This document shows positions 44,801 to 63,817 of a stretch of 64,000 bases of DNA, piece by piece. The stretch is from Microbacterium terregens. Its GTDB lineage: Bacteria > Pseudomonadota > Alphaproteobacteria > Sphingomonadales > Sphingomonadaceae. Numbering within the stretch: the first letter of the stretch is position 1; each line of letters opens with the position of its first letter. The DNA is taken from the NCBI RefSeq assembly GCF_027922045.1, contig NZ_BSEX01000004.1, forward strand, positions 62,001-126,000. Reading direction: 5' to 3'. The notes under the pieces were generated by a model, which was not told where the DNA came from, made no database searches, and saw only the letters and a list, made by a program, of their open reading frames with translations. The position numbers were made by a program, and so were the translations under genes.

Positions 44801-47131
44801 ATGATCCCGATCTCTTGCCGTGCGCGCCTCATGTCCTGCGCCGCCCCGGCCTTCATTCTCTTGGCAACGCCTGCAGCGGCCGCTCCCGTGCAGGAGCCCG
44901 GCCCTGCGGCCGAACCGCAGGCGGAGGCGCACGAAGTCATCGTCACCGCGCAGCGCCGTCCGGAGCGTATCCAGAACACGCCCGTCGCGATCACCGCGCT
45001 CGACGAACAGGCGATCGTCCAGCGCAAGCTCAGCGACATCAAGGACGTGGTGACCTACACCCCCGGCTTCTCCGGCAACTCCGAAGACAGCTTCATCGAT
45101 ACGCTGGCGATTCGCGGCATCGTCTCGAACGACTATGGGATCGGCGGCGATCCCTCGATCGGCATCTTCAAGGACGGCGTCTATCAGGGGCGGACCGGAA
45201 GCGCGGTCACCTCCTTGTTCGACATCGAGCGCGCGGAGGCCCTGCGCGGGCCGCAGGGCTTCCTGTTCGGGCGCAACGCCATTTCCGGCGCGATCAACAT
45301 CGTCACCAACAAGCCCGACACGGAGCGAGTCCGGGGGCACGTCTATCTCGGCTATGGCGAGGTGGATCGCGTGGAGGCGGAGGCTGCGGTCAACCTGCCG
45401 CTGACCGAGCATTGGGCGCTGCGCGTCGCCGGATATCACACTGCCTCCGACGGGTGGGTGGACAATGTGTTCACGCCCGGTCGCGACGATCGGCTGATGG
45501 GTGAGAACCGCACTGCGGCGCGCGCCTCGCTGCTCTATACGGTGGGTCCGCTGCGCGTGATCGCCATGGGCGAGTATGAGCGGCGGCGGCTGGATGGCAC
45601 GCCCTATCGCGCTTCCAACGACGATCGCGAGGTGCTGGACGCGATCGACGACGCGCTTGGCATCGATCTCGTGGTCGGCGGTGGTCCTCGCGATGTGGAT
45701 ACGGAGCTAACGGACCCCCGCGACGACGGTGAGATCTACGGAGGCACGCTTCAGGCCGACCTGGATCTGGACTTCGCCACGCTGAGTTCCATCACCGCCT
45801 ATCGCCGCCACCGCTTCTTCTATTCCGAGGATTATGACGGGACGCCGCTTCGCATCGGCAACTACAGCCAGCGCCAGCGCGGCACCTATGCAAGCCAGGA
45901 GGTCCGCCTCGTTTCTCCGGGCACGGGTCGGTTCACCTGGTCGGCCGGGCTGTCCGGCTATCGCGAGACGGTGCGGGCCCGCTTCACCGAGCAGGCGGAC
46001 GAGACGGCCGTCTGCCTGGCCGGCTACGGCTACTCCAGTTGCGAGGAACTGACCCAGGACCTCTATGGCACGCCCTATGTTGCCGCGCCGGACGGTATCC
46101 TGGTCGACGTGAACGAGGCGCGGACGGTGAACACCGGCCTCTCCGCCTATGGCGACCTCAACTATCGCGTCCTCCCCAAGCTGAACGTCGGCCTGGGACT
46201 GCGCTACACCTGGGACCACAAGAAGTTCGGGCTGAACATCCTCCCGAGCGACACCACGCTCGGCAACATCTGGACGTTCGCCTATTACACCAACGGCTTC
46301 GTGACCGATGGCAGGTCCTGGCAGGGTACGACGCCGCGGCTCTACGTGCGCTATGAGATCCAGCCCCGGCTGAACGTCTACGCGAGCATCACGCGGGGCT
46401 ATAAATCGGGCGGGTTCGGCTCCTTCACGGTGGCAGCGCCCGGACCGATCGAGGACTACAGCCTCGTCCCCGACAGCACCAAGCCCGACGCCTTTGCGCC
46501 CGAGACGATCTGGAGCGAGGAGCTGGGGGTGAAGGGCGACCTTCTCGGCGGGCGGCTGCGGTTCGACCTCACCGGCTTCCTCTACAACTACCGCAATCTG
46601 CAGAGCGTCTTTTTCGACACCGAAACGCGCACGCAGCGGGTCCTGAACGTCGGGCGGGTGCAGGGATATGGTGCCGAGTTCGCGACGACCCTTCGCCCCA
46701 GCCGCTTCTTCGATCTGACGGGGACGCTCACCTATACGCATACGCAGAAGCGCGGCGACCGCGATTGCACGCTGCGCGACTGCGGCGGCCTTCCGAACCC
46801 CAGCTGGGCGTCGAGCGGTGTCGGCACCTTCCATTATCCCCTCGCCTCCGGTGAAGCCTATCTCGCGGGCGAGTGGGTCTACGAAGGGCGCGGGCGCCAA
46901 AGCTTCGACTGGCGCGGCATCACCCGCCGCCACGGCTATACCGCGGTGAACCTACGCCTCGGCTATCGCTCGGACGCCGGGTGGGAAGCCGTCGCCTATG
47001 TCGAGAACCTGTTCGACGCGCTCTACTATCACGGCGCGGAGAACGGTGGCGACCTGACCCCCGCTACGGTGTGGGGCGTAGCGCAGCCGCGCAACGTCGG
47101 CCTGAACCTGCGGTGGCGCTTCGGCGACTAG
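44801..47131 (+). CDS. TonB-dependent receptor (xylan-locus receptor 1)
   Basis: This outer-membrane receptor of about 776 residues has a signal peptide (SCAAPAFILLATPAAAA), a TonB-box region HEVIVTAQRRPERIQNTPVA, a plug with GIFKDGVYQGRTGSAVTSLF and RGPQGFLFGRNAISGAINIV, and a barrel ending NVGLNLRWRFGD. The plug signature is that of the large sphingomonad family for oligosaccharides and aromatics rather than siderophores. Its ligand is inferred from context: it is next to GH10, MGH1-like and GH43 genes. ATG 44801 is preferred, 44831 possible. Its stop shares bases with the stop of the convergent xylanase gene. Confidence 0.85.
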   Translation: MIPISCRARLMSCAAPAFILLATPAAAAPVQEPGPAAEPQAEAHEVIVTAQRRPERIQNTPVAITALDEQAIVQRKLSDIKDVVTYTPGFSGNSEDSFIDTLAIRGIVSNDYGIGGDPSIGIFKDGVYQGRTGSAVTSLFDIERAEALRGPQGFLFGRNAISGAINIVTNKPDTERVRGHVYLGYGEVDRVEAEAAVNLPLTEHWALRVAGYHTASDGWVDNVFTPGRDDRLMGENRTAARASLLYTVGPLRVIAMGEYERRRLDGTPYRASNDDREVLDAIDDALGIDLVVGGGPRDVDTELTDPRDDGEIYGGTLQADLDLDFATLSSITAYRRHRFFYSEDYDGTPLRIGNYSQRQRGTYASQEVRLVSPGTGRFTWSAGLSGYRETVRARFTEQADETAVCLAGYGYSSCEELTQDLYGTPYVAAPDGILVDVNEARTVNTGLSAYGDLNYRVLPKLNVGLGLRYTWDHKKFGLNILPSDTTLGNIWTFAYYTNGFVTDGRSWQGTTPRLYVRYEIQPRLNVYASITRGYKSGGFGSFTVAAPGPIEDYSLVPDSTKPDAFAPETIWSEELGVKGDLLGGRLRFDLTGFLYNYRNLQSVFFDTETRTQRVLNVGRVQGYGAEFATTLRPSRFFDLTGTLTYTHTQKRGDRDCTLRDCGGLPNPSWASSGVGTFHYPLASGEAYLAGEWVYEGRGRQSFDWRGITRRHGYTAVNLRLGYRSDAGWEAVAYVENLFDALYYHGAENGGDLTPATVWGVAQPRNVGLNLRWRFGD

Positions 47132-48249: not shown

Positions 48250-48272
48250 GGGCTTTCTCCGGTTTCCGGGGC

Positions 48273-49865
48273 TCAGCCCTGGTCGAGGGGGATGCGGCGA
48301 TTGGGGTGGACTGTCAGCGTGCGGGGCAGTCGCCCGGCGAGGCGGAGCGTGACCCGCTGCGGCTTGGGCTCAATCCCGAGCAGCGCGCGCGGGGTGCCGT
48401 CCGTAGCGGTGATCAGCCGCACGGCACCGCCCTCGATCCGGCCGAGCAGCTTGCCCGACAGGGTGAGGCTCGCCCCCCTGCCGTCATAGGCCATCGCCGC
48501 CGTCCGACCGGCGTCCGTCGGCAGGGACAGCTGCGTTCCGACCGCGGCGGGGTGCCCGGGGCGCACGTTCCAGTGGAGCGCGTCGGGCTCCTCCACAACG
48601 CCCACCAGGCGCCAGCTATAGTCCACCATCACCAATGCGCAGGGTGAATAGCGTGGCTGGTCCTCGCCATGGGTGAAGGCGCCGGTTTCCGGATCGATCT
48701 GCTGGCGGAAGCTCGGGTCCGCCTGGATGGCCTCGCACCAGGCGTTCATCATCTCGGTGAACTCGGCCGTGCGGCCATAATGCTCGATCCAGCGCGGTGC
48801 GCGCATGGCGGTGAGCGCCTGCGACGCGCCGCCCCAGCTGTTCGCCGGGATCGGGCGCACGAACGTCGGATCGTCCATCGCGATCGACGCCATCGGGTAG
48901 CGCGTCCAGAACGCCTGCCGGTTGCCCAGCTGCCGGGCCCACAGGGTGTCGAAGGTCTTCTGGTCGACGACATGCTCCCCGCAGACGCGGCTGAGAATGT
49001 CGGAGCGCACGCGCACGAACTGATTCTGCGCATTCAGGTCGTAGAAGGCGGCATCCTCGGCGACATAGAGCGTGTCCAGGATCCGCCGCCGGATGGCTTC
49101 CGCCTGCTCGGCCCAGCGTGCGGCCTCGTCGCGCTTGCCAAGCGCCTCGGCCATCGCCGCCAGCGCCCGGCGGCCGCCGTACACCGTCGCGGACAGGTCC
49201 GGACACAGCCGCGGCAGGGAGGCGATCGGATGGTGGGTGCGCGCGTCCTTGTTCGGGCACTGGTTCGGCATGCCCTTCCAACGCGGCGAATTGTCGTGGC
49301 CGGTGTCATAGGTGCAGAAGCCCTCGACCAGCCCGGTGCCGCGCGTGTTGCGATGGCGCATCAGCCAGCCGTCCCACGCGCCGCACGCCCGATAGGCCGC
49401 CTCCAGCAGCTCGCCGTCCCCAGTCGCCCGCGCCAGGTCCCAGGCGGTGGCGGCGATCGGCACCACCATCTGGATCTGGCCGAAGCCGGTCTCGACGACC
49501 TTGTTGTTCGCCGGCAGCTGACCGTCGGCGCGCTGCAGTTCGAAGAAGGTCAGGTGGCTGTTGCGCGCAACGTCGGGGCGGAACTTGCGGTACAGCAGCG
49601 CCTCGTGGGGGCCGCACTCCTGCCAGATGCCCTGGTAGACCGATCCCTCGATCAGCACCGGCTTGCTGACGTACGGCATGACCTTCACGTTGCCGGCGAG
49701 CACGTCGAGCGCGGCGTCATAGGCGGCCTGCCAGCGCGTGTTCGTGGTCGAGAAGCGCGGCACGCCTGCTGCCCCGCCCTGCTGGGCACGGGCAAAGGCG
49801 GGCATAGCCAGCGTGGCAGCGGCGCTGCCCGCAAGGAACGATCTGCGATCCAAGGACGACCTCAT
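48273..49865 (-). CDS. Exported MGH1/GH63-like glycoside hydrolase
   Basis: This 530-residue enzyme has a Tat-type signal (DRRSFLAGSAAATLAMPAFA) and an (alpha/alpha)6 barrel with CTYDTGHDNSPRWKGMPNQC, the Asp-containing NSPRW motif shared by GH63/GH37-like enzymes, and WTRYPMASIAMDDPTFVRP and ANSWGGASQALTAMRAPRWI later. A C-terminal beta domain follows. It likely removes a terminal side-chain sugar from hemicellulose or pectin fragments; the linkage is unknown. Its ATG overlaps the GH43 stop by four bases. Confidence 0.82.
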   Translation of the reverse strand: MRSSLDRRSFLAGSAAATLAMPAFARAQQGGAAGVPRFSTTNTRWQAAYDAALDVLAGNVKVMPYVSKPVLIEGSVYQGIWQECGPHEALLYRKFRPDVARNSHLTFFELQRADGQLPANNKVVETGFGQIQMVVPIAATAWDLARATGDGELLEAAYRACGAWDGWLMRHRNTRGTGLVEGFCTYDTGHDNSPRWKGMPNQCPNKDARTHHPIASLPRLCPDLSATVYGGRRALAAMAEALGKRDEAARWAEQAEAIRRRILDTLYVAEDAAFYDLNAQNQFVRVRSDILSRVCGEHVVDQKTFDTLWARQLGNRQAFWTRYPMASIAMDDPTFVRPIPANSWGGASQALTAMRAPRWIEHYGRTAEFTEMMNAWCEAIQADPSFRQQIDPETGAFTHGEDQPRYSPCALVMVDYSWRLVGVVEEPDALHWNVRPGHPAAVGTQLSLPTDAGRTAAMAYDGRGASLTLSGKLLGRIEGGAVRLITATDGTPRALLGIEPKPQRVTLRLAGRLPRTLTVHPNRRIPLDQG

Positions 49866-51502
49866 GGGTTGAGCTCCGGATGGTCGACTCGGAACCAGTC
49901 GACGTCGATGTGGCCGCTCGGGCCCCGCTGGTTGAAGGTGAACAGCGCCGGGCGCGATCCCTTCCACCAGGAGAAGCGGGCGAGCGGAATGGCCTCGCCG
50001 ACCGGCGTGAAGCCGTCCGTGCCGAGGCTGTAGCTGTAGCGCACGGTCTGGTCGCTGCCGACCTCCGCCCGCAGCTCGATGGTGTCGGCGCTCAGCCGCG
50101 GCCCGGCCTGTTCCTCGCCTTCGCGGGCCAGGGTCAGGTGGGTTTCACCCCGCTCGCGCACCGCACCGATCCAGCTCGGACGCACGCCGAACAGGGTGAG
50201 ACCGGCACGCTGGCCATCCGCCATGTGGGACAGGTCGATCCGCGCGGTGATGCGGCTCTCCGGCCCCTGCAACACCTGGGTCAGCGTGTTGCGCGCCGTC
50301 ACCAGATGCTGCGCCTCCCCCGCCTCCAGTCGCAGCCAGCCCGGACGCGCCGACAGGCTCCAGCGCTTGTCATCCGGATTGTGGTTCCACGCCCATTGCA
50401 GGCCAAGCCTCGGCGCGCTGAACTCGTCGGAGTCCTGCAGCCGTTCCCGCGTGGGCGCATGGCCGGTCTTGGGCCAGGGCGGCGTCATGATCGGCTCGCC
50501 CGAGGTCTTGCCCGCGATTGGCCGCCCCATCACCGGCCAATCGTCCACCCAGCCCACCGGCTGGAGGTGGACGATGCGGCCGAACGCGCCGGTGCTGTTG
50601 AAATGGGCGAACCATCCCTCGCCCGATGGCGTCTCGATCCAGCCGCCCTGATGTGGTCCTTCCAGCGGGGTCGAGCCCTGCTCCAGCACCACGCGCCACT
50701 CATAGGGCCCGCGAATGTTGCGGGCGCGCAGCGCGACCTGCTGTCCCTTCTCAACCCCGCCGATGGGCGCAAAGATATAGTACCAGCCGTTGCGCTTGTA
50801 GAACTTCGGCCCTTCCAGGATCGGCAGGTTCGCCTTGTCCTCGACGATCACCTCGCCCTTGTCGAGCACGCGAGTCCCGTCCGCGCTCATGCGGTGGAGG
50901 ATCAGCGGACCGGCGCCATGCCGCGAATGGACCAGCCAGGCGGTGCCGTCTTCGTCCCAGAAGGGGCACGGGTCCTCCAGCATCCGCTCGTCGATGACCT
51001 TGACCGGCTTGCTCCACGGACCAGCCGGGTCGCCGGCGGTCGCCATGAACACGCCTTCGTCGATCGTCGCCCAATAGACGTAGAACCGGCCGTTGTGATG
51101 CCGGATCGACGGCGCCCACACGCCGCCTGCGTAGCGCGTGCCCCCCACCGGCTTTGAGATCTTGTCGGTGAGGCTGTGCGGTCCCGGCATGTCATATTCG
51201 GGCGCGAACGGCAGGCGCGGCAACACGCTGCCGATGATCGTCCAGTGCACCAGGTCATAGGACCGCAGGATCGGGATGCCGGGCGAGAAGTGGAAGCTCG
51301 ACGACACCATGTAGTAGGCGGTGCCCACCCGGATGATGTCCGGATCGGAATAGTCGGCGAACAGGATCGGGTTGCGGAACGTGGCGGGTGCGGTGGCCGG
51401 CTGCTCCGCAAAGACTGATGGCGCACCGCCGCACAAGATCAACGCAAGCAGTGCCGCCCCGGTGCGTACAGACCTCCGCCGTCCCAAGCCTTGAACCATC
51501 AA
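49862..51502 (-). CDS. GH43 glycoside hydrolase (beta-xylosidase/arabinofuranosidase-like)
   Basis: This 546-residue protein has a Sec-type signal (GAALLALILCGGAPSVFA) and a five-bladed GH43 propeller. The catalytic base Asp is in FADYSDPDIIRVG (about 53), the pKa-modulating Asp in MLEDPCPFWDEDGTAWL, and the acid Glu in LPILEGPKFYKRNGWYYIFA (about 228). The C-terminal half is a beta-sandwich of the GH43_C2/DUF1349 kind. Members remove xylose or arabinose from xylan and arabinan. It is the first gene of the operon, behind a LacI-type operator-like site. Confidence 0.92.
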   Translation of the reverse strand: MMVQGLGRRRSVRTGAALLALILCGGAPSVFAEQPATAPATFRNPILFADYSDPDIIRVGTAYYMVSSSFHFSPGIPILRSYDLVHWTIIGSVLPRLPFAPEYDMPGPHSLTDKISKPVGGTRYAGGVWAPSIRHHNGRFYVYWATIDEGVFMATAGDPAGPWSKPVKVIDERMLEDPCPFWDEDGTAWLVHSRHGAGPLILHRMSADGTRVLDKGEVIVEDKANLPILEGPKFYKRNGWYYIFAPIGGVEKGQQVALRARNIRGPYEWRVVLEQGSTPLEGPHQGGWIETPSGEGWFAHFNSTGAFGRIVHLQPVGWVDDWPVMGRPIAGKTSGEPIMTPPWPKTGHAPTRERLQDSDEFSAPRLGLQWAWNHNPDDKRWSLSARPGWLRLEAGEAQHLVTARNTLTQVLQGPESRITARIDLSHMADGQRAGLTLFGVRPSWIGAVRERGETHLTLAREGEEQAGPRLSADTIELRAEVGSDQTVRYSYSLGTDGFTPVGEAIPLARFSWWKGSRPALFTFNQRGPSGHIDVDWFRVDHPELNP

Positions 51503-51522
51503 CCCCTCCTCATCCCAAACAG

Positions 51523-51536
51523 CGAGAGCGTTACCA
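51523..51536 (-). promoter_or_regulatory. LacI-type operator-like site upstream of the GH43 operon
   Basis: On the minus strand it reads TGGTAACGCTCTCG. The first ten bases match the TGnTAnCGnT part of LacI-family operators, while the second half is degenerate. It lies 21-34 bases upstream of the GH43 ATG. A similar, more symmetric site at 51655-51668 faces the other operon. Confidence 0.5.
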
Positions 51537-51654: not shown

Positions 51655-51668
51655 CGTTAGCGCTATCG
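51655..51668 (+). promoter_or_regulatory. LacI-type operator-like site upstream of receptor 2
   Basis: CGTTAGCGCTATCG, with a perfect TAGCGCTA core, matches the TGTTAGCGCTAnCA type used by LacI-family regulators such as Caulobacter XylR. It lies about 87-100 bases upstream of the receptor ATG, downstream of a possible -35 TTGACG (51608-51613). Confidence 0.55.
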
Positions 51669-51754: not shown

Positions 51755-54700
51755 ATGGGCACTCGGGCTCTAGTTCGCGCGCACCTGCTGGCCGGCTCAG
51801 CGGTACTGATGGCCGGAGTGTTGCCCGGCGGCCCGGCGTTCGCTCAGGCGGTGCCCGTCCAGGCCACGGAGCAGACGGCGCCTGCCCCCATCGGCTCCAA
51901 CGGCACTGCCCAGACCAGCACCGTCGCCGATCCCAACGGCCAGGCGGGCAGCCAGGTCAATGGGGAGGGTGAGCCCGGCGCCGACGTCGTCGTCACCGGA
52001 TCCCGCATCGCCCGCACCGGCTTCGACGCGCCGACCCCCGTCAACGTCGTCGACGCGCAGGAGGTGAAGCTTTCGGGCAACGTCAACATCGAACGCACCC
52101 TCCAGCAAATCCCGCAGACGGTCGCCTCGCAGCTGGGCGGTGCCACGTCGAACACCGTTCCCGGTGGCTATGCCGACGTCAATCTTCGCGGCTTCGGCTC
52201 GACCCGAAACCTGGTGCTGGTGAACGGCCGGCGCTTCGCGATCTTCGGGCCGGAACAGGTCGTCGATCTCAACACCATCCCCTCGACGTTGATCGCCCGG
52301 ACCGAGATCGTCACTGGCGGTTCGTCCGCGGTCTATGGCTCGGACGCGATCACGGGCGTGGTGAACTTCATCATGCGCACCGATTTCGAGGGCGTGGAAG
52401 CGCGCGCGCAGCTCAACCTGGCGGGGCCGACGAGCACGCCCACCTATAATTATGATCTCACGGTCGGCGGCAACTTCGCCGAAGGGCGCGGGAACGCCGT
52501 GATCTCGATGAACTATCTCGACCGCGGCTCCATCACCCGCGGCCAGCGGGGTAGCTTCGCCTATCTGTCGCTCGCCGATCGGTGCGTCGTGCCCGGATCG
52601 GGGAGCGCGAGCGGCCCGGGAACGCCGTTCACGCCTGCCGGAGGACTTGGCTGCGTCGCCGGCGGCGGCGAGCTCGGCTTCGTCGCCAGCGGATCGGGCG
52701 ACATCCCCAACGGCCGCTTCTCCGGCATTCCGGCTTTCGGTGGCACCAACGCCGCGCTGAACGCCGCCTATGCCGCAGCCGGCCTGAGCGGCCTCGGTGG
52801 CCGCGGCTTCACCTTCAACGACGAAGGCTCCTCGGCCCGGCCGGCGCTTACCCCGCAGGACGACTTCAACCTCGGTCCGGACAACTACCTCATCCAGCCG
52901 CAGAAGCGCTGGATGATCAACAGCTTCGCGCACTATGACTTCACCGACTCGATCACCGGCTACATGGAGCTCCACTACTCGCACAACGAGGTGGATGCCC
53001 GGCTCGCGCCGACCAACGTCGGCTCGCCGACGCTGTTCAACGCCGACAACCCCTATCTCACGCCCGCGTTGCAGGAGGTCTTCCGGCAGCTCGACCTCGC
53101 CGAGACCGGACCCACGACCGTCACCAGCGGCACCGCCACCCGGATCAACAACCCGGGCGATGGCCTTGCGCTCGTCACTGCCGGCCGCCGTTACGTCGAG
53201 GTCGGCGCGCGGGCCGCGACCGAGCGGCGCAACGTCTATCGCGGCGCCTGGGGCCTGCGCGGCGATCTCGGGAACGCGTCCGAGAACTTCCTGACGGACC
53301 TGAAGTGGGACGCCTACTACACCTACTCGCGCAGCGAGAACACGCTGCAGCTGCGCAACGCCCTGTCGCGCAGCCGGCTTCAGGAGTCGCTGCTTTCGGA
53401 AGGCGGCGCGGCTCCCTTGTGCAACATCTTCGGCGCGAACGTCAGCGCGGAATGCGCAAGCGCGATCCGCATCAACGCGACCAACACCACCGTCGCCACC
53501 CAGCAGGTCGCGCAAGCAAGCCTCACCGGCAACCTCGTCAACCTGCCTGCCGGCGGGGCGGGCTTCTCGGGCGGCTTCGAATGGCGCAAGGTGAGCGCGA
53601 CCTTCTCGCCCGACTCCTTCCTCGCGTCCGGGGACGTCGCCGGCTTCAATCCGGGCCTCCCCACCCAGGGCTCGGTGTCGGTGAAGGAGGCTTTCGGCGA
53701 AGTCCGCATCCCGCTGATCCACAACACGCCGCTGATCGAGCAGCTCGCGTTCAACGGCGCGTTCCGCTACTCCGACTACAGCCTGAAGGGCGTCGGCGGG
53801 CAGTGGACCTATTCGGCCGGCCTGGACTGGCGCGTATCCCGGGACCTGACCCTGCGCGGCCAGTATCAGCGCGCGATCCGCGCACCCAACGTGGGCGAGC
53901 TCTACGGCGGCATCAATCGCGTCGTCGGCGCAGCGACCGATCCCTGCTCGAGCCGCGCGCCGGTGTCGCAGCAGACCGACGCGGTTCGCGCGGTGTGCAT
54001 CGCGACCGGCGTGCCAGCGGCCGCCGTCTTCTCGCCCGAGGTGCAGCCGAACGCGATCATCCCCGCGGACTTCGGCGGCAACCCCAACCTCGATGCCGAA
54101 AAGTCCAACACCTACACGGCAGGCGCCGTCATCACGCCGCGCTTCGCGCCCGGCCTGTACCTGAGCGTCGACTATTTCAACATCGACCTGAAGGGGGCGG
54201 TCGCTGCACTCGGCGGCGGGCTGCAGAACACCTTCAACCTCTGCTATCTGACGCTGCAGGACGCAAACAGCGAATATTGTCGCGCACTCAACCGCGATCC
54301 CCGCACGGGCGAGATCAACGATCCCTACGTCGCCCGCATCCTGAACGCGAATACGGGCGCGCTCCAGACCGAGGGCATCGACTTCGCCGGCCGCTATCGC
54401 TTCGACATCGGATCGGGCGATACCTCGGTCGAGCTCAGCTCCACCTTCACCTATCTGCTCGACTTCACCTCGACGCCGGTGGCAGCCTTCCCGGACATCA
54501 AGAACAAGTGCGTCGGCGCATATGGTCCCACCTGCGGGCAGCCGCTGCCGGAATGGCGCGGCACCACGCGGGCGACGCTCAACATCGGCGATTTCTCGGC
54601 GAGCGTTCGCCATCGCTACATCGGCCCGGTCACCACCGACCGCTACATCGTGCCGCTGCGCCAGAATGCGGAGACCGCCCCGCCGATCACCAACTTCGCC

Positions 54701-54904: not shown

Positions 54905-54953
54905 CCTGGCGGGGTGGGCCAGCCCACCCCCGACCTGCGGAGAAAGAGACAGG

Positions 54954-56525
54954 ATGCTGATCGATCGTCGTGCCGCGCTGCTGGGCGGAGCCGTTGCCGC
55001 CGGTGGCCTGCTCCTGTCCCCCGCATGGGCCGCCGGGCAGGTGGCAGGCGACGGCTGGGTCAGCGTGCGCCGCTTCGGGGCGAAGGGCGACGGCCGTGCG
55101 CTCGACACCTCCGCCATCAATCGTGCGATCGACCATGCCGCAGCCCGCGGCGGCGGCACCGTCGTGTTCCCCGCCGGCACCTATGCCGCGCATACCATCC
55201 GGCTGAAGAGCCGAGTGTCGCTGTACCTGGACCAGGGCGCGACGATCCTCGCCGCCGCCCCCACCGCCACTGCCGGCTATGACGTCGCCGAGCCGCAGGA
55301 CCCGCGCGCCGTGGGCTTCCAGGATTTCGGCCACAGCCACTGGCGCAACAGCCTGATCTGGGGCGAGGGGCTGCACGACATCGCGATCCTCGGCCCCGGT
55401 CTCATCTGGGGCAAGGGGCTCGGCCGCGGCGACGGCAAGGACAATTGGCTCAAGGACCCCTCGGGCCCGGGCACCGGCAACAAGGCCATTGCGCTGAAGA
55501 ACTGCCGCAACGTCCTGCTGCGCGACTTTAAGGTGCTCGAAGGCGGCTGGTTCGCGCTGCTCGCGACCGGCGTCGACAACATGACGATCGACAATGTCGT
55601 CGTGGATACCAACCGCGACGGCTTCGACATCGACTGCTGCCGCAACGTGCGCGTCACCAACTGCACGGTGAACTCGCCCTGGGACGACGGCATCTGCCCC
55701 AAGTCGAGCTATGCGCTGGGCGAGCCGCGCATCACCGAGAACCTGACGATCGCCAACTGCTTCGTGACCGGCAACTACCAGGTGGGGTCCGTCATCGACG
55801 GCAGCTTCCGCAAGATGCCGGCCGACTTCGCCCCCCAGATCCACGGCCGCATCAAGTTCGGGACCGAGACCAACGGCGGCTTCCGCAACGTCGCGATCAG
55901 CAACTGCGTGTTCGAGGACAGCCGCGGCCTCGCGATCGAGACTGTAGACGGCGGTGTGATCGAGGATTTCGCGATCAGCAACATCACCATGCGCGGGATC
56001 GTCGACGCGCCCCTGTTCCTGCGCCTGGGCAAGCGGATGCGCGGCCCCGCGGGCCGGCCAATCGGCACGCTCAAGCGGATCATGATCCAGAACGTGACCA
56101 GCAGCAACGCGACGCCCCTGCCCTCGGTCTTCGCCGGGCTCGCCGGCCATCCGATCGAGGACGTGTCCCTCTCCGACGTCTACCTCCACCATGTCGGCGG
56201 CGCGCCGGCGGCAATGGCGCAGGTGCGCCCGCCCGAAAACGAGCTCGGCTATCCCGAGGCCACCATGTTCGGAGACCTTCCCGCCACCGGCCTGTTCGCG
56301 CGCCACCTGCGCAACCTGGAAATGCACCATGTCGAGATCGCGACCGCGGCGCCCGATCCGCGGCCGGCGATCTGGCTGGAGGACGTGGCCGATGCGGACA
56401 TCACCAATTTGCGCGCGCCGCGAGGCGAAACGTTCGCGCTCACCGACGTCACCGGCTTCCGCAGCACCGGCGCCCGCTGGCTGAAGGACCGGCAGGTCGA
56501 CGGCCGCATCACCGACCGCTTCTAG
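54954..56525 (+). CDS. Exported GH28 polygalacturonase-like hydrolase
   Basis: This 523-residue protein has a Tat-type signal ([18 protein letters not shown]) and a right-handed beta-helix. The N-terminal motif is VRRFGAKGDGRALDTSAINR; catalytic motifs are NRDGFDID (about 220-227) and SPWDDGIC (with Asp244 and Asp245), and GRIKFGTET has the RIK substrate-binding motif (about 299-301). These fit GH28, which hydrolyses galacturonan or rhamnogalacturonan; the canonical NTD is NRD here. It should act in the periplasm. It follows receptor 2, so the receptor may import pectic oligomers. Confidence 0.88.
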   Translation: MLIDRRAALLGGAVAAGGLLLSPAWAAGQVAGDGWVSVRRFGAKGDGRALDTSAINRAIDHAAARGGGTVVFPAGTYAAHTIRLKSRVSLYLDQGATILAAAPTATAGYDVAEPQDPRAVGFQDFGHSHWRNSLIWGEGLHDIAILGPGLIWGKGLGRGDGKDNWLKDPSGPGTGNKAIALKNCRNVLLRDFKVLEGGWFALLATGVDNMTIDNVVVDTNRDGFDIDCCRNVRVTNCTVNSPWDDGICPKSSYALGEPRITENLTIANCFVTGNYQVGSVIDGSFRKMPADFAPQIHGRIKFGTETNGGFRNVAISNCVFEDSRGLAIETVDGGVIEDFAISNITMRGIVDAPLFLRLGKRMRGPAGRPIGTLKRIMIQNVTSSNATPLPSVFAGLAGHPIEDVSLSDVYLHHVGGAPAAMAQVRPPENELGYPEATMFGDLPATGLFARHLRNLEMHHVEIATAAPDPRPAIWLEDVADADITNLRAPRGETFALTDVTGFRSTGARWLKDRQVDGRITDRF

Positions 56526-56561: not shown

Positions 56562-58955
56562 TCAGAAGCGGGCGCCCAGTTCCACGCCATAGAAGCGTGG
56601 CTCGCCTGCGATGTAGGTTGGAATGCCGAAGCCGCCGCCGGTGTTGCCGGCGTCGATCAGATATTGCTCGTCCGTCAGGTTCCGCGCAAAGCCCCCGATG
56701 CGATAGCGGCCGTCCGCAGTTTCGATGCCGGCCCGCAGGTTGACCAGCGCATAGCCGTCCTGGCTGATCGCTTCGTTGTTCGGGACCTCGAAATACACCT
56801 TCGATCGGTAGGTGACGGTCGGGGTCGCATAGAGCGTCCAGTTGCCGACCGGCACGCGCAGCGATGCACCGCCCGAGGCAGTCGTGTCGGGCTGCAGGCG
56901 GAAGCGGTTGCCGGCATAGACGCCGTTCGCCGCATCATCGGCGATGCCGCCGTCGAGGTAGGAGAAGCTGCCGAACAGGGTCAGCACGGGCGAGATCGCC
57001 AAGCTGGCTTCCAGCTCGACGCCCAGATTGTCGGCCGATCCAGCGCTTTGCGTCCGGGTGACGCCGTCCTCGCCGGTGACGGAGACCTGGAACCCCTTGT
57101 ACCGCTGGTAGAAGACGGACGCCGCGCCGGTGAACGGGCCGACCCGGCCCTTGATGCCGCCTTCGTAGTTCCAGACCGTCTCCTCGGGCACCAGCTGGAG
57201 GTTCGGCACCACGCCACCGGCGCTGTTGGCAGCGCTCAGCTGCACGACGGGCGAGCGCCGGCCCTTGCTGACGGTGCCATAGAGGTTGAGGCTGTCGTTC
57301 AGCCGGAACAGCGCATTGAACCGCGGAAGCAGCGCCGCGAAGCTGCGCTGCGCCGTCAGCTTCGCGCCCTGGGTGTTCGCGGTGCCGATCAGGCTGGTAC
57401 GAATGCCGAGCGCGGCCAGGATCACGGAGTTGGGCTGGATCGAGCTGTAGCCGGACTTGCGGTCCTCGATCAGCACGCGGGCGCCCGCGGTCAGTTCAAG
57501 CCGCGGAGTTGGGATCCAGGTGGCGTCGGCGAACACCGAATAAGTGTCGTTGTTGCCGTAGTTGCTGAACTCCGACGCGTAGGGAAGCTCGCGAAGCGCC
57601 CCGCCGGTGACGATCGACGTCACCTGCGTCGCCGGGATGGTACCGTTCGGCAGAACGCAGCCCGTTCCCGTCGGGATACCGATCGCCTGCAACTGCGCGC
57701 GGACCGGCGCATAGGCTGCCGCCACCGAGCAGGCGAGATAGGTCCCTTCCTCCGTCGAGAAGGGCACGCGCTGGTAGCCGTTTTCGAAAAAGGCGTTCCA
57801 GCCGAAGGCCGCGCGATACTCGGCACCTTCGAACGAGAAGCGGCCCTCATGGCTCCACTGCTCCCCCTTCGCATCCTCGGCGAACTCGAGGTACCAGGCC
57901 GGGCCGCCATCGGCGTCGAACACCTCCAGCGCGTCGAAATGGCGGAAGCCGTTGACGGTCGTGAAGCGGATACCGTCCGCCAGGTCGACGTTCACCGTCA
58001 GATTGGCGTCATAGACGTTGCGGTCGAGTCCGAGCTTGCGGGCGCCGAGCACCTCCTCGCTATAGGGAGAGCCCGACAGCTCGGCATAGCCATAGTCGCC
58101 GGTCTGCCCGCCGGTGGGGGCATGCGCGCGCGACTTGAACGCGGTGCCCGGGTTGCGCTGCCCGTCATAGGTGAGGACCAGGTCCGCGGTGACCGCATCG
58201 CTCGGCTGCCAGCGGAGCGATCCGCGGATGCCGCGCTGGTCCTGGCCATTGAGGTCGTCCTGGTCGACCCGGCCCTGGTTCTGGTTCGGAACGTCGGGAT
58301 CGCCGGCGATGTTGCGGACGTAGCCGCGGCGGTATTTGTAGGCGAAGGCGATCCGCCCCGCCAGCACCTCGTCCCCCGCGTTCACGAAGCCCGAAACCTG
58401 GGTACGATCGAAATTGCCATAGGAGCCGGCGAGCTCGCCCGAGAAACCCGGCTCGGGTGCGGCGGGCACGATGCTGATCGCGCCGACCGCAGCCGCGGTG
58501 CCGAACAGCGTCGCCTGCGGGCCCTTCACCACCTCGATGCGGGCCAGGTCGTAGAGGTCCTGATAGGCGCCCCGCGAACGGCTGATGTCGACGCCGTTAT
58601 AGTAGAGCGTGACGCGCGCACCCTGTTGTGCGGAGCCTGAGTCCGAGGTGATGCCGCGGATCACGAAGCCGGGATTGTTGGCGCTCTGCTCCTGCACCTG
58701 AAGGCCCGGGATGAACGCTGCCACCTCGTCCAGCTCGGACACGCCGATGTCGGCCATGTGCTGGCCCGACAACGCGCTCACCGTGACGGGCACGTCCTCG
58801 ATCCGCTGCGCCCGCTTCTGTGCCGTGACGATGACTTCGTTCGCCTCGAACGCCGACCCGTCGCCCTCCGGCTGCGCACTCGCCTGCGCCAGCGCCCCCG
58901 ACGAGACGCCCGCGCCGAGCGTCGCCAGCACGAGCCCAAAACCAAACTTCCGCAT
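56562..58955 (-). CDS. TonB-dependent receptor 3
   Basis: This 797-residue outer-membrane protein has a signal peptide (MRKFGFGLVLATLGAGVSSG, cleavage after ALA), TonB-box ANEVIVTAQKRAQRIEDVPV, a plug with VIRGITSDSGSAQQGARVTL and EVVKGPQATLFGTAAAVGAI, and a barrel ending GVELGARF. It is a sphingomonad-type TBDT of unknown ligand. It is divergent from phoD, and the 172-base gap has phosphate-box-like half-sites, so phosphorylated compounds are a possible ligand as well as oligosaccharides. Confidence 0.88.
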   Translation of the reverse strand: MRKFGFGLVLATLGAGVSSGALAQASAQPEGDGSAFEANEVIVTAQKRAQRIEDVPVTVSALSGQHMADIGVSELDEVAAFIPGLQVQEQSANNPGFVIRGITSDSGSAQQGARVTLYYNGVDISRSRGAYQDLYDLARIEVVKGPQATLFGTAAAVGAISIVPAAPEPGFSGELAGSYGNFDRTQVSGFVNAGDEVLAGRIAFAYKYRRGYVRNIAGDPDVPNQNQGRVDQDDLNGQDQRGIRGSLRWQPSDAVTADLVLTYDGQRNPGTAFKSRAHAPTGGQTGDYGYAELSGSPYSEEVLGARKLGLDRNVYDANLTVNVDLADGIRFTTVNGFRHFDALEVFDADGGPAWYLEFAEDAKGEQWSHEGRFSFEGAEYRAAFGWNAFFENGYQRVPFSTEEGTYLACSVAAAYAPVRAQLQAIGIPTGTGCVLPNGTIPATQVTSIVTGGALRELPYASEFSNYGNNDTYSVFADATWIPTPRLELTAGARVLIEDRKSGYSSIQPNSVILAALGIRTSLIGTANTQGAKLTAQRSFAALLPRFNALFRLNDSLNLYGTVSKGRRSPVVQLSAANSAGGVVPNLQLVPEETVWNYEGGIKGRVGPFTGAASVFYQRYKGFQVSVTGEDGVTRTQSAGSADNLGVELEASLAISPVLTLFGSFSYLDGGIADDAANGVYAGNRFRLQPDTTASGGASLRVPVGNWTLYATPTVTYRSKVYFEVPNNEAISQDGYALVNLRAGIETADGRYRIGGFARNLTDEQYLIDAGNTGGGFGIPTYIAGEPRFYGVELGARF

Positions 58956-59054
58956 CTTTCTGTTTCCCCCAAACGGCGACGCGGCCCGACTAGGGAGGAC
59001 AGGTGACAAAGCGGCGGCAGCCGCATGACGCGGCGGTGACGCCCGCTTCCCCAA

Positions 59055-59082
59055 AGTGTCACGCCTCCGCAACCGAAGTGTC
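59055..59082. promoter_or_regulatory. Direct AGTGTC repeats upstream of phoD
   Basis: AGTGTCACG (from 59055) and AGTGTCGCG (from 59077) are 22 bases apart, two helical turns, ahead of phoD. PhoB boxes use TGTCA half-sites every 11 bases; the middle half-site is missing here, so the call is weak. Confidence 0.3.
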
Positions 59083-59127
59083 GCGCGCGCTGCTTAGTGG
59101 CCGCGGCAGATTTGGGGAGCATTTTCG

Positions 59128-60774
59128 ATGACGATCAACCGCCGCGGCGCCCTGTCCCTGCTGGGGACGGGCCTTGCCCTGACGTTGCCCGCAGGCGCCG
59201 GCGCGGCACCGGCCACGGGCCGCTTCGACCATGGGGTCGCGAGCGGCGATCCCGCCGCAGACGGCGCGATCCTGTGGACGCGAGCCACCCCGCCCGCCGG
59301 GTCCAACGCCGACGTTCCGCTGCGCTGGCACGTCGCCCCGGCCGCGGACGCAGCGCCGATCGCCTCCGGCGAAGTCGTCGCCCGCGCGGCACGCGATTTT
59401 ACCGCCAAGGTCGCGGCAAGCGGCCTTTCCGCTGGCACCGAATATTGGTTCTGGTTCACCAGCGGAGACGGCACGCGCTCGCCGGTCGGCCGCTTCCGCA
59501 CGCTTCCGACGGGCGCCACCGCGGAACTGGTGTTCGCAGTCGTCTCCTGCCAGCTCTACCCGGGCGGGCTCTACAACGCCTATGACGCGATCGCGCGCAG
59601 CGACCGGCTCGACGCGGTGCTCCACCTGGGCGACTATATCTATGAATATGGCGCGGAAGGATATGGCGCGGAGATGGGCGCCAAGCTCGGCCGCCTGCCC
59701 GAGCCCCGGCACGAGATCCTGACGCTCGCCGATTACCGCCTCCGCCACGCGCAGGTGAAGCGCGACCCCGACATGCAGGCAGCCCACGCCCGCGCCGCGT
59801 TTATCTGCGTGTGGGACGATCATGAGGTTGCCAACGACAGCTGGATGCACGGCGCCGAGAACCACGACGCCGGCACCGAGGGCGACTGGGAGAAGCGCAA
59901 GGCGGCAGCGATGCAGGCCTATTTCGAATGGATGCCGATCCGCGACCCGCGCCCGGGCGATCCGTGGGACGCGATCAACCGCAGCTTCGAATTCGGTGAT
60001 CTGGCGACCCTGGCGATGGTCGAGACCCGCCTGCTGGCCCGCGCGCGCCAGGTCGCGGCGAAAGGCGCGGCGCCTACTGCGGCCGACTACGCGCCGATGA
60101 TGGCGGAGCGTGCGCGCCCCGATCGGGAGTTGCTGGGCCCGCGCCAGCAGCGCTGGCTCGAGGGAACGCTTGCGGCCTCGGTGAAGGCCGGCAAGCCGTG
60201 GCAGGTCCTGGGCAATCAGGTGGTGATGGCACGCGTCGCCGGACCCGATCTGGAGCGTCAGCTGGGCGCCGAGCGCTACGCGGCGACGATCGCGAAAATG
60301 CCCGCCGCCTATCGCGAGCGGATGGCTGGCGCAGTCGCCTCCTATCGCGCCGGGCTGCCGTTCAACTTCGACAGCTGGGACGGCTATCCGGCCGCGCGCG
60401 AGCGGCTGTACGCCAGCTTCCGCCGGGCAGGGTCGCGGCCGATCGTGCTGTCGGGCGACAGCCACGCTGCCTGGGCCAACGACCTCCACGACCAGAAGGG
60501 TACGCTTGCCGCCGTCGAGTTCGGCACGACTGCGATCAGCAGCCCTTCCTATGGGTCGCTGCTGCCGGGCATCGGCCGGCTGATCGCGGATGCGAATGAG
60601 GAAGTGCAGTTCTGCGACCAGGACAACAAGGGGTTCCTTCGCCTGACGCTCACCCGCGAGGCGGCGGTCGCGGAGTTCGCGACCGTCTCCACCATCGTCG
60701 CCAAGCCCTACACGACCGCGGTCGCCGCCCGCTTCCGGGCGACCTCCCGCGGGCCGCTCCAGCGGCTGGCCTGA
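59128..60774 (+). CDS. phoD: PhoD-family alkaline phosphatase/phosphodiesterase
   Basis: This 548-residue protein has a Tat signal (NRRGALSLLGTGLALTLPAG), an N-terminal PhoD domain FDHGVASGDPAADGAILWTR, and a metallophosphatase core: VVSCQLYPGG with the Fe-ligand Cys, HLGDYIYEYG, ICVWDDHEVANDSW and LSGDSHAAWAND. PhoD uses Fe and Ca to hydrolyse phosphomono- and diesters in the periplasm under phosphate limitation. It is divergent from receptor 3 and converges with the twin-helix protein. Confidence 0.95.
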   Translation: MTINRRGALSLLGTGLALTLPAGAGAAPATGRFDHGVASGDPAADGAILWTRATPPAGSNADVPLRWHVAPAADAAPIASGEVVARAARDFTAKVAASGLSAGTEYWFWFTSGDGTRSPVGRFRTLPTGATAELVFAVVSCQLYPGGLYNAYDAIARSDRLDAVLHLGDYIYEYGAEGYGAEMGAKLGRLPEPRHEILTLADYRLRHAQVKRDPDMQAAHARAAFICVWDDHEVANDSWMHGAENHDAGTEGDWEKRKAAAMQAYFEWMPIRDPRPGDPWDAINRSFEFGDLATLAMVETRLLARARQVAAKGAAPTAADYAPMMAERARPDRELLGPRQQRWLEGTLAASVKAGKPWQVLGNQVVMARVAGPDLERQLGAERYAATIAKMPAAYRERMAGAVASYRAGLPFNFDSWDGYPAARERLYASFRRAGSRPIVLSGDSHAAWANDLHDQKGTLAAVEFGTTAISSPSYGSLLPGIGRLIADANEEVQFCDQDNKGFLRLTLTREAAVAEFATVSTIVAKPYTTAVAARFRATSRGPLQRLA

Positions 60775-60780
60775 GCGGAC

Positions 60781-60807
60781 CCGGCGGCGGAAACTATCCG
60801 CCGCCGG
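60781..60807. terminator. Bidirectional hairpin between phoD and the twin-helix gene
   Basis: A perfect 11-bp stem CCGGCGGCGGA/TCCGCCGCCGG with loop AACTA lies between convergent stops. Confidence 0.65.
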
Positions 60808-60817
60808 CACACCGCGA

Positions 60818-63817
60818 TCAGATGCCCGTCGCGTACAGGCTGTGGTGGGTCAGGATGTAGAGCGTCCGCCGGTCGGGCCCGCCCAGCAGCAACTGCAGCG
60901 GCCGCTCCGGCACGTCGATCCGCCGCTGCAGGCGCGAGTCAGGGCCGTAGACGAACACCTGCCCGTTCGCGACATAGAGGTTGCCGGCAGCATCCCGGGC
61001 CACGCTCTCGCCCCCACGATCCGCCACGATCTTGAGGTCGGTCACCCGGCCGCCCTCGCCCACGCGGCCGCTGTAGGTCCGATTCTCCGATGCGTTGGTG
61101 ACGACCACCCGGCCGTCCGCATCGGCCGCGACCAGCCCATAGGCATCCAGCGTGTCCGACCAGCGCCACCCGCGATGATCGTCGGGTCCCTGGTTCCACA
61201 CGCGGAAAGCCGGCAGCACCAGCGATCCGTCCGGGGAGACATATTCCTGCGCCTTCGCCTCCCCCAGCTTGTCGACGAAGAAGTGGGACAGCGGCGGGTA
61301 GGCGTAGGTCGCGGGATCGATGCGGTCGGCAAACTCGCCATTCGCCCAGACGTTGACCGGGAGCAGGGTCGAGGCGCCGTTGTGCGCGCGGACTGGCGTC
61401 GGTGCGATCACGCGGACATCGGCCGGCTTCTGCGGGTCGATGCTGAACACCGTCCCGTCCCGACCTGCGGAGGAGAGCACCAGCAGGTCGCCGGAACGAT
61501 CGACCGCCAGGTTGACCGCGTCGAGCGGCGCGTCGGCGACGATCGTCAGCCCCTCGGGCTTGGACCAGCCGTGGATGCGCTGAAAGAAGCGGTCGATGAA
61601 GAAGAGCTTGCCGTTGGCATCCACCGCCCCGCCCGCGATTGAGTAGAAGCCGTCGGCGAGCTTCTCCACGCCCGGCGACACCGGCACCCCGGACTGGGTT
61701 GCGGCGACCGTGGGCGCGGACGGCAGGTCGAGCCGCGCGAACTCCCGCTCCCGGACCTCCTGTTGCCGGGTCATGTCCTTGATCGCGTTCTCGAACGGGA
61801 ATTTACTGACGCGGGTGAAGGTGCCGCAGCCTTTCGCGTCGCAGCTCGCAAAGCCGCTCTCGGCGTTCACATGGACGTTGCGGAAGCGGATGTCGCCCGA
61901 GTTGTAGAGCTTCACCGCCGCATCCATCGGCTTGATCGACCGCGTCACGCGATAGCCGTGGTAGTTGGCGAACAGGATGTTGCGGGAGTTGTGGAATTCG
62001 GTCGAGACCGCGTTGACGCCGTCCTGCACCTCCTGCTCGGTCTGGGGCGCCAGGAACTCCCAGTTCTCGACGTTCTTGAGCACGATCTCGGCACGATAGT
62101 GGTGCTCGGCCGACAGCTGGTAGACATGCCCCGGCGTCTTGGTGTCCGAGACGTAGAAGCCGGCCGACGCCAGCGTGTTGGGCGACCAGAGCGCCGCAAA
62201 GGTGCCGCCGCCGCCGTCCGTCACCCAGATGCTGGGATATTGCCCATCGAAGCGCGCACGCGGATCGCCGAAGCCGATCGGGCTGCCCTTGGTCAGCACG
62301 GTGCCGCCGCCGCCCTGGATCTTGACGTCGTTGACCTCCGACGCCTCGCCCGCGCGCCACAGCAGCGCCGTCGCGCGCGGGTTCACGCCACCGGTCCACA
62401 ACCCCAGGCCGTGGACGATGGCATTGCCCCCCTTCGCGCTCTGGATCAGCGCCTTGGGTCCGCCGACGCCCATGAACGCCGGCGTCTCGTCCGGCAGGTA
62501 GAGGTGGGTGAGGCTCGGGTGGAGCGCGATCAGCACGCTGTCCGGACGCAGCTTCAGCGTGTCGGTGACGCGGTATCGCCCCATCGGCAGATACAGCACG
62601 CGGTGGGTGTCGATGGCACGCTGCAACGCCGCGGTGTCGTCGGTCGTATCGTCGCCCTTTACGCCGAGGTCGCGGACGTTGGTCCATTGCGACACGGGCG
62701 GCAGCGCGCGGATCTTTGCCGCCGGGCGCGCCGGCGTGCGACCGAGCGGCGCCATCTCGACGTCGGTCGCATAGTCGCCGATCGTGCCCAATCCGGCGAG
62801 CTTCAACCCGTAGGAGAAGTCCTTCACCTGGTAGCGGGCCCCCGACCCGGCCACCGTCTTCCCGCTGTCGCGAAAGCGGGCGAACGTCGGCGTGTTGACC
62901 GCCACCGCATCGGCGAAGCCGACCTGGGTGAAGACGTTGTTCTCTTCGGAGATCAGCACGCCCGCGTTCGAGACATTCTCGAACCGCACCTGCTTGCCGA
63001 ACAGCGAGTCCGAATAGCCGCGGTCGATCTCGATCCCGATCGGCGTGTCGCGGATGGCGACGTTCACCAGCGTGAGGTCGACCTCATGCTCGCGGATCGC
63101 GGCGTCGCGCTGGCCCTGGAATTCGGAATCGATCAGCGTGAACTGCCAGGCAGGCGAGGTCTTTTCCGACATGATGCCATAGCGGCCGCCGTAGAAGCGG
63201 AGGTTCTCGAACTCGTTGCCCGCCTGATAGACGCCCGCGAGCCCGGAGCCGATGTGGAAGTCGACGTGGCGCAGATAGCCGTGCTGCGCGACGCGGAAAC
63301 GCACGGCAACCGCGCCGGCATTGCCCGCGCCGATGCGGAAATCCACGTTGGAAAGCGCCGAATAGAAGGTGCTCGACGTGGCATCGAAGATGCTGGGGTC
63401 GAACGGCACGCTGGTGCGCGGCGGCACCGGCGCCTTGCCGACACGATATTGATCCTCGCCCGTGAAGGCCACCATTGCTGCAACGCCCGAGCCGAAGCCG
63501 CCGGTGTTGTCCCCAAGGATGATCTCGGGACGAGTCGGGCCGACGCCGAACACCCGCACGGCGGACTTCACGAAGATGGTGCGGCTGATGCGGTACCGGC
63601 CGGAGGGAAGGAAGACCACGCCGCCGTGACCGCCTTCCGCAGCGGCATCGATCGCCTGCTGGATCGCCGCACTATCGTCTGCGCGTCCGTCGCCGACGCC
63701 CCGGACGGTGATCGCACGCGGGTCGTCGGGAGCCTGGAGGTAGACCGATGATGACTTTGCCAGAACCGGGGCGGGCAGCATCAATGCCGCCGCGCCGAGC
63801 AGCCAGGTCGCCTTCAT
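60818..63817 (-). CDS. Exported twin beta-helix protein (GH55-like) with C-terminal propeller-like domain
   Basis: This 999-residue protein has a signal peptide (MKATWLLGAAALMLPAPVLA) and two pectate-lyase-3 motifs: VGDGRADDSAAIQQAIDAAA (about 41-60) with VFLPSGRYRI, and VKGDDTTDDTAALQRAIDTH near 388-407 with LYLPMGRYRV. Two tandem beta-helices are the architecture of GH55 exo-beta-1,3-glucanases. After about residue 720 the sequence changes to an NHL/SMP-30-like propeller (LAVDRSGDLLVLSSAGRDGT, GLVAADADGRVVVTNASENR, VARDAAGNLYVANGQVFVYG). The catalytic residues are not identifiable by eye. AGGGAG precedes the ATG and an operator-like site lies upstream. Confidence 0.8.
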   Translation of the reverse strand: MKATWLLGAAALMLPAPVLAKSSSVYLQAPDDPRAITVRGVGDGRADDSAAIQQAIDAAAEGGHGGVVFLPSGRYRISRTIFVKSAVRVFGVGPTRPEIILGDNTGGFGSGVAAMVAFTGEDQYRVGKAPVPPRTSVPFDPSIFDATSSTFYSALSNVDFRIGAGNAGAVAVRFRVAQHGYLRHVDFHIGSGLAGVYQAGNEFENLRFYGGRYGIMSEKTSPAWQFTLIDSEFQGQRDAAIREHEVDLTLVNVAIRDTPIGIEIDRGYSDSLFGKQVRFENVSNAGVLISEENNVFTQVGFADAVAVNTPTFARFRDSGKTVAGSGARYQVKDFSYGLKLAGLGTIGDYATDVEMAPLGRTPARPAAKIRALPPVSQWTNVRDLGVKGDDTTDDTAALQRAIDTHRVLYLPMGRYRVTDTLKLRPDSVLIALHPSLTHLYLPDETPAFMGVGGPKALIQSAKGGNAIVHGLGLWTGGVNPRATALLWRAGEASEVNDVKIQGGGGTVLTKGSPIGFGDPRARFDGQYPSIWVTDGGGGTFAALWSPNTLASAGFYVSDTKTPGHVYQLSAEHHYRAEIVLKNVENWEFLAPQTEQEVQDGVNAVSTEFHNSRNILFANYHGYRVTRSIKPMDAAVKLYNSGDIRFRNVHVNAESGFASCDAKGCGTFTRVSKFPFENAIKDMTRQQEVREREFARLDLPSAPTVAATQSGVPVSPGVEKLADGFYSIAGGAVDANGKLFFIDRFFQRIHGWSKPEGLTIVADAPLDAVNLAVDRSGDLLVLSSAGRDGTVFSIDPQKPADVRVIAPTPVRAHNGASTLLPVNVWANGEFADRIDPATYAYPPLSHFFVDKLGEAKAQEYVSPDGSLVLPAFRVWNQGPDDHRGWRWSDTLDAYGLVAADADGRVVVTNASENRTYSGRVGEGGRVTDLKIVADRGGESVARDAAGNLYVANGQVFVYGPDSRLQRRIDVPERPLQLLLGGPDRRTLYILTHHSLYATGI

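Follow-up and report, generated by a model that had tools for sequence, protein, structure and literature searches.

Closest described systems

Carbohydrate utilisation (CUT) loci of Xanthomonas campestris bring together degradative enzymes, an inner-membrane transporter and a regulator beside a TonB-dependent receptor (TBDR), with examples for xylan and pectin (PMC1790865). In sphingomonads, TonB-dependent transporters with a carbohydrate and xylan gene context have been reported from Sphingobium fuliginis; unlike the units described here, that report has no occurrence of the terms 'gluconate', 'glycos' or 'phosphatase' (PMC7142613). Here we compare with these systems a 19 kb region (positions 44,801 to 63,817) of a 64,000-nucleotide stretch of DNA, referred to throughout as the window, from contig NZ_BSEX01000004.1 (assembly GCF_027922045.1, filed under Microbacterium terregens and placed by GTDB in the Sphingomonadaceae). 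A preliminary description of the window had read this region as one candidate polysaccharide utilisation locus for xylan and pectin. Sphingomonas that live on leaves or in soil possess numerous TonB receptors without a known substrate. The region shows how adjacency within a single genome can mislead, and splitting it yields two assignments that can be put to the test. One is a locus for rhamnogalacturonan and xylan that has a LacI-type candidate operator; the other is a glycan locus linked to gluconate and centred on an enzyme family resembling glycoside hydrolase (GH) family 55.

A probable patchwork of four conserved units

We consider it probable (roughly 80%, for the explanation as a whole) that the 19 kb combine four units, each conserved on its own, and that two of these serve carbohydrate utilisation. 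The argument is built on computed gene families, linkage, conservation of the unit 1 operator, a predicted fold and conserved residues, from which we infer substrates, direction of flux and regulators. Profile searches located the three TBDRs, the GH10, MGH1-like, GH43 and GH28-type enzymes and the GH55-like twin-helix protein where the preliminary description had placed them, and added a PhoD gene that it had not listed. The features are as follows.

Unit 1
47128–48249, minus strand: GH10 endo-xylanase with a Tat-type signal (PF00331, 269 bits)
48273 to ~49865, minus strand: MGH1-like (α/α)6 glycosidase with a C-terminal β sandwich
49862–51502, minus strand: GH43 with GH43_C2, arabinofuranosidase/xylosidase type (PF04616, PF17851)
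51655–51668: LacI-type palindrome CGTTAGCGCTATCG, probable operator, in the divergent region between GH43 and TBDR2
51755–54904 (start approximate), plus strand: TBDR2, TonB-dependent receptor (PF00593/PF07715)
54954–56525, plus strand: GH28-type rhamnogalacturonidase, BT4146 type (NCBIfam NF049898)

Unit 2
56562–58955, minus strand: TBDR3, TonB-dependent receptor, partner of PhoD
59128–60774, plus strand: PhoD-type phosphatase (PF09423, 344 bits)

Unit 3
42357–44594, minus strand: CHASE4-GGDEF-EAL cyclic di-GMP (c-di-GMP) enzyme, divergent from TBDR1
~44888–47131, plus strand: TBDR1, TonB-dependent receptor

Unit 4
60818–63817, minus strand: Twin1, 999 residues, matching PF12708 in two stretches and SGL at the C terminus; outer gene of the unit
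63837–63850: weak LacI-type palindrome TGGTATCGTTATCA, ~20 bp ahead of the Twin1 start
63911–64000, minus strand: 3' end of a gene for a small LuxR-type regulator that runs on past the window edge, placed by collinearity with L006:4366–13869 of G001

Linkage was followed through 151 genomes drawn from the genus Sphingomonas, and the Fisher and other co-occurrence tests ignore phylogeny. The window is DNA of the Sphingomonas type. Its nearest relative, G001, is collinear with nearly the whole window at 95–98% identity and, together with G064, counts as a close relative; individually named loci (L) and genomes (G) overlap and hence are not independent, L009 and G064 being apparently one record. 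The middle of the region, 47128–56525, is kept together and co-inherited in Sphingomonas genomes, whereas the ends are not kept with it: the GH55-like gene, TBDR3 and TBDR1 have their linkage elsewhere. The claim of one 19 kb system thus stands for the middle, and the linkage of the twin, PhoD/TBDR3 and TBDR1 genes in other genomes speaks against it for the region as a whole. Two minus-strand open reading frames were rejected as genes: 59059–60810, antisense to PhoD, and 51797–55180, antisense to TBDR2, neither with a Pfam match. A promoter and terminator scan gave scores under the shuffle means.

Unit 1, a candidate rhamnogalacturonan and xylan locus

The tight GH43, MGH1-like and GH10 string noticed earlier is borne out, with GH43 and MGH1 abutting or overlapping and 23 bp between MGH1 and GH10; it is divergent from TBDR2 and the GH28-type gene, which are separated by 49 bp. 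The MGH1-like gene occurs in seven of the 151 genomes, and in all seven GH43 adjoins it and a rhamnogalacturonidase orthologue lies 2.1–6.3 kb away. TBDR2 adjoins the rhamnogalacturonidase in six of the seven (in G001 by collinearity), and in G019 a TBDR2-like gene of 52% identity sits farther off. The rhamnogalacturonidase itself is found at 70% identity or more in 12 of 151 genomes; in the five without MGH1, it has GH43 adjoining in three (G072, G119 and G042) and TBDR2 in two (G112 and G087). Outside the two close relatives the unit 1 proteins are 65–78% identical and the flanks differ, so that retention of the set exceeds recent shared synteny. Judged by this gene content and order, 47128–56525 behaves as a co-inherited and probably co-regulated unit.

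Conservation of the divergent region is consistent with shared control. A 10-mer common to the upstream regions of four of the seven genomes is the core of the palindrome TGNTAGCGCTANCA, which is present with at most two mismatches in all nine loci that have TBDR2 or the divergent pair (the window and G064 among them being close relatives), and without a mismatch in G112 and G087, both unused in its discovery. In the same DNA, 94 of 6400 randomly placed windows of 450 bp reached this level, the tested upstream regions being 320–760 bp long (300 bp in G072). At the co-directional GH43/rhamnogalacturonidase loci of G072, G119 and G042 the upstream palindrome has 4–5 mismatches; G042 has a one-mismatch copy ~1.2 kb past the rhamnogalacturonidase, outside the tested upstream region. 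Within the window alone, the matches to CGTTAGCGCTATCG and TGGTATCGTTATCA are within chance, and the CGTTAGCGCTATCG palindrome is significant because of the orthologous loci only. The palindrome at 51655 is likely the operator of a LacI-family regulator, the family of the reader being suggested by the palindrome class.

The enzymes point to the substrate. GH10 has β-xylanases as its Protein Data Bank (PDB) matches (9uj3, E 4e-97; 9upa, E 7e-96), and GH43 is related to 6mly, HiAXHD3 and β-xylosidases. The GH28 call holds at the level of the family, and the gene is better named a rhamnogalacturonidase of the BT4146 type, since 54954–56525 scores 643.6 bits against the NF049898 cut-off of 500. 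Like BT4146-type enzymes it passes this cut-off; unlike them it sits in a proteobacterial TBDR locus and adjoins GH10/GH43. In other genomes the genes flanking unit 1 include RhaT in G005, GH106 with another GH28 and a pectinesterase in G033, and a LacI regulator in G150, which suggests rhamnose-rich pectin as the target. Two flanks weigh against this: the ten genes scanned in G106 include a chemotaxis receptor, efflux genes and a further two TBDRs, with no pectin gene, and that of G033 is made up partly of cupin, hydrolase and amidase genes, which are no pointer to pectin. The earlier assignment to xylan and pectin agrees with the unit 1 enzymes, with its pectin part shifted: rhamnogalacturonan, together with xylan, seems a better candidate for the target than polygalacturonate.

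Should unit 1 instead be an arabinoxylan locus, its rhamnogalacturonidase would act on a minor substituent; this would account for GH10 and for GH43 with GH43_C2, whose nearest PDB relatives are by name xylanases and arabinoxylan or xyloside enzymes. We regard it as rather unlikely, since the constant parts of the locus are the rhamnogalacturonidase, GH43 and MGH1, GH10 stands at the locus in only four of the seven MGH1 genomes (once as a fragment), and the genes nearby are RhaT in one relative and GH106 with a pectinesterase in another. Covalent xylan–rhamnogalacturonan hybrid polymers are known from plants, and a locus aimed at such a hybrid would need both enzyme sets jointly. GH10 orthologues of at least 68% identity are confined to four of the 151 genomes, all four with a representative at the rhamnogalacturonan locus, as that idea would have it; with four genomes only, two of them close relatives, and with GH10 following MGH1 in two and the rhamnogalacturonidase in the other two, one of which has the fragment, we think it improbable. 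The fragment is that of G019, where the intact GH10 copy lies ~65 kb away.

The MGH1-like protein matches PF22422 at 111 bits and the rhamnosidase profile PF17389 at 24.0 bits, just below the cut-off of 24.5. Its predicted model (mean pLDDT 73.9) has an (α/α)6 barrel and a C-terminal β sandwich, and amylo-glucosidase, GH78 and GH63 structures match its fold equally well, with no single GH family standing out. Of the 120 homologues listed, 12 are named α-L-rhamnosidase by NCBI, other names among them being MGH1-like, trehalase family and α-glucosidase. Our best guess is a GH78-like α-L-rhamnosidase, a role proposed because of its neighbours.

In the rhamnogalacturonan and xylan reading that we prefer, the exported GH10, GH43, MGH1/GH78-like enzyme and rhamnogalacturonidase would cut the polymer and TBDR2 would import the resulting oligosaccharides, while a LacI-family regulator encoded elsewhere would bind the palindrome between both divergent operons. 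Among the genes of 47128–56525 there is neither an inner-membrane transporter nor a regulator, which makes unit 1 a partial CUT locus. None of the scanned genes matches a SusD family in Pfam, as would be expected of a Bacteroidetes-type SusC/SusD pair, no search having been aimed at it.

Units 2 and 3, receptor pairs with other partners

TBDR3 and PhoD lie side by side in divergent orientation in all four other genomes examined (L169–L172). A PhoD of at least 64% identity is encoded in 38 of the 151 genomes, near a twin gene solely in G001 and G064. The pair is a candidate outer-membrane uptake system for a phosphorylated compound. TBDR1 orthologues (E 1e-120 or better) are restricted to four of the 151 genomes, and in both that are not siblings of the window (G080 and G110) TBDR1 is divergent from a CHASE4-GGDEF-EAL gene, as in the window; it is possibly coupled to c-di-GMP signalling. 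A grouping of either pair with xylan or pectin is not supported by this gene content, and unit 2, with its presumed role in phosphorus supply, and unit 3 would belong to neither carbohydrate unit.

Unit 4, a twin-helix protein linked to gluconate genes

Twin1 or a paralogue is encoded in 66 of the 151 genomes. The preliminary description noted no sugar transporter, and this is so among the window genes scanned (those right of ~23.6 kb); in G001 a gluconate:H+ symporter gene begins ~450 bp past the point that matches the window's right edge. There, a small LuxR-type gene is accompanied by GntP, a FadR-type GntR, GntK, a second twin-helix protein (Twin2) and a further receptor (TBDR4). Across 92 loci with a twin gene, LuxR is found nearby in 81, TBDR4 in 80, GntR in 74, GntK in 67 and GntP in 56, whereas PhoD, TBDR3, the rhamnogalacturonidase and TBDR2 are near it in one (L009). 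These loci are 72 named ones, nearly all Sphingomonas, and 20 places chosen among matches of 58–65% identity; presence was scored at identity cut-offs of 30–60% by gene and above 60 bits, some loci being short.

GntK is present in 65 of the 66 twin genomes against 12 of the 85 others (Fisher p 9e-29) and lies within 12 kb of the twin gene in 63 of the 65. In four of the 12 GntK genomes without a twin gene (L155–L158), GntR and/or GntP stand beside GntK, and the query genes there include no clear substitute for the twin enzyme. The layout of unit 4 varies, with inverted blocks, twin genes flanking TBDR4, or GntK or GntP missing, which argues for functional linkage. By its linkage, then, the twin gene, the most interesting of the region, is part of another, widespread locus and not of unit 1.

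Twin1 fuses a GH55-like twin β-helix (~26–699) to a propeller of the SMP-30/gluconolactonase type (~713–999). GH55 enzymes are its top sequence and fold matches, and its predicted model contains the twin β-helix (rib-cage) fold. Residues were compared in an alignment of 241 proteins, made up of the best 120 of 4315 homologues, the best 120 of 873 and the window's own. The general acid E594 and the relay E571–H572, placed by alignment to 8jhh and 3eqn, are invariant in 241 of 241. Q178, H179 and N201 are likewise invariant, in an N-terminal helix whose weak alignment leaves them unmatched to Thr149, Gln174 and Ser198 of SacteLam55A. Over 26–699 Twin1 thus resembles PcLam55A, CtLam55, MnLam55A and SacteLam55A in its twin β-helix, general acid Glu and Glu–His relay, and it differs from GH55 in lacking the conserved Tyr helper and the aromatic block, in its linkage to gluconate uptake genes and in its extra C-terminal propeller, the words 'propeller' and 'gluconolactonase' being absent from the comparison paper (PMC10637969).

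The position of Tyr505 of SacteLam55A, the residue that orients the acid (597 in Twin1), is V in 121/121 close and N or H in 120/120 distant homologues. The aromatic block that closes subsite −1 is likewise lost, with S or D/N in place of Trp444 throughout the 241 sequences; 156 of the 241 have W at the Trp446 equivalent, and among the distant homologues W531 is conserved in only 48 of 120. With the helper Tyr and the aromatic-block Trp lost and W531 variable, specificity for β-1,3-glucan may not hold. In the propeller, whose six-bladed fold emerges from structure comparison of the model, the position aligned with the first-blade Glu of 3e5z, which we take to be a metal ligand, is Ala, Ser or Thr in 241 of 241, in a blade alignment that is weak by score. 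In this the family differs from the SMP-30/gluconolactonase propellers 3e5z and XC5397 (3dr2), and a working lactonase is unsupported because the metal Glu is absent. Loss of parts of the GH55 subsite, and the occurrence of PF12708-type helices in lyases and epimerases too, would also suit Twin1 and Twin2 as glycan-binding or lyase/epimerase-type β-helix proteins; the invariant general acid and relay residues and the GH55 top matches make this unlikely.

For Twin1 as a hydrolase, we tentatively propose, with more doubt than confidence, that the family is a new GH55-derived glycoside-hydrolase family, its subsite −1 remodelled and its propeller metal-less, that its glycan is catabolised to gluconate rather than glucose (for example an oxidised aldonate-ended or a gluconate-bearing one), and that with TBDR4, GntP, GntK and GntR it forms an unrecognised system in 66 of the 151 genomes. 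In the four-unit reading that we prefer, unit 4 would be a complete carbohydrate locus, in which Twin1 and Twin2 hydrolyse a glycan by a GH55-like inverting mechanism and TBDR4 imports its fragments. The end product is most likely gluconate, since in the G001 sequence beyond the window GntP passes the TIGR00791 and GntK the TIGR01313 cut-off; it would enter through GntP, be phosphorylated by GntK and pass to central metabolism, under the control of the FadR-type GntR. The gluconate could arise by release of glucose followed by periplasmic oxidation or, more boldly, from a glycan with aldonate ends. Telling against the first route, a pyrroloquinoline quinone (PQQ) dehydrogenase passes its cut-off in 39 of the 66 genomes with a twin gene and, only slightly less often, in 36 of the 85 without (p 0.05), a weak co-occurrence by which oxidation of glucose to gluconate is not established and for which PQQ-glucose dehydrogenase was rejected as an obligate gluconate source.

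As in the X. campestris CUT loci, TBDR genes stand beside degradative enzymes, and unit 4 has all four parts (TBDR4, Twin1/Twin2 with a putative enzyme activity, GntP and GntR, as seen in the G001 sequence beyond the window), unit 1 only some; 'GntP' does not occur in that account, and the passages on which we draw mention no GH55-type enzyme (PMC1790865). The titles and abstract openings listed in a literature search that covered few subscription journals held no description of either gene set or of a GH55–propeller fusion. Among the matches listed, Twin1 relatives occur also in metagenome-derived Acidobacteria, Sedimentisphaerales and Lentisphaerae, and their names are generic only ('glycosyl hydrolase family 28-related protein', 'gluconolaconase', 'sugar lactone lactonase YvrE').

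Regulation could connect the two carbohydrate units, which would weigh against their separateness. Of 78 loci, 47 have a LacI-class palindrome around the TBDR4 start, compared with 2 of 234 shuffles; upstream of Twin1 the palindrome reaches two mismatches in only 8 of 91 loci, compared with 2 of 273 shuffles. Since the TBDR4 and unit 1 palindromes are of one LacI class, a single regulator of that class could serve units 1 and 4. The twin gene may also be linked to xylan or hemicellulose, because some relatives adjoin GH43, CE1 or GH10 genes (L080, L054, L056, L060 and one Sphingomonas clade). The strongest form of such a link, a single 19 kb xylan/pectin locus in which the GH55-like enzyme removes a side chain, fits the adjacency of the genes in the window, G001 and G064, the GH43 and CE1-type esterase genes that adjoin a distant twin-helix homologue in L080, the GH43, MFS and LacI genes that flank the twin gene in L054, L056 and L060 (with a GH51-like gene in L054 and L060) and GH10 near the twin gene in 3 of 92 loci. 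We hold it to be very unlikely: seven of the 12 rhamnogalacturonidase genomes hold a twin gene, and the two genes are within 30 kb in only two of these (G001 and G064). Further, the Sphingomonas loci with a GH43-like gene no more than ~10 kb from the twin gene number 10, many belonging to a single clade, which is not far above the ~5 of ~88 expected by chance, a rough estimate from 3–20 GH43 genes per genome; the GH43 genes were found by tblastn with four queries, which may have missed some.

The L054, L056 and L060 clusters, in which GH43, MFS, LacI and a TBDR4-like receptor surround the twin gene and esterase genes are present in L054 and L056, are probable arabinoxylan loci by gene content. 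In L042 the twin gene stands without any of the query genes nearby, and this locus gave no substrate hint. In L023 (4000–9500) the TBDR4 and GntP matches each fall into three pieces, as by DNA insertion. The twin-helix gene is apparently broken into two adjoining pieces in G019 (C1:1669009–1672015) and G088 (C1:4012799–4015695), and the twin linkage counts with the rhamnogalacturonidase and GntK omit the second fragments. G001 has equal-score GH43 matches at C3:2736 and C3:176824 and equal-score PQQ dehydrogenase matches on C1 and C3; these repeats are possibly a duplicated segment or assembly redundancy.

Other genes of the window

Consecutive MFS, HlyD-type and OEP genes at 28971–33143 form an efflux set, not a sugar transporter. 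At 38713–41071 a catalase gene adjoins an ankyrin-repeat gene, a commonly met pairing.
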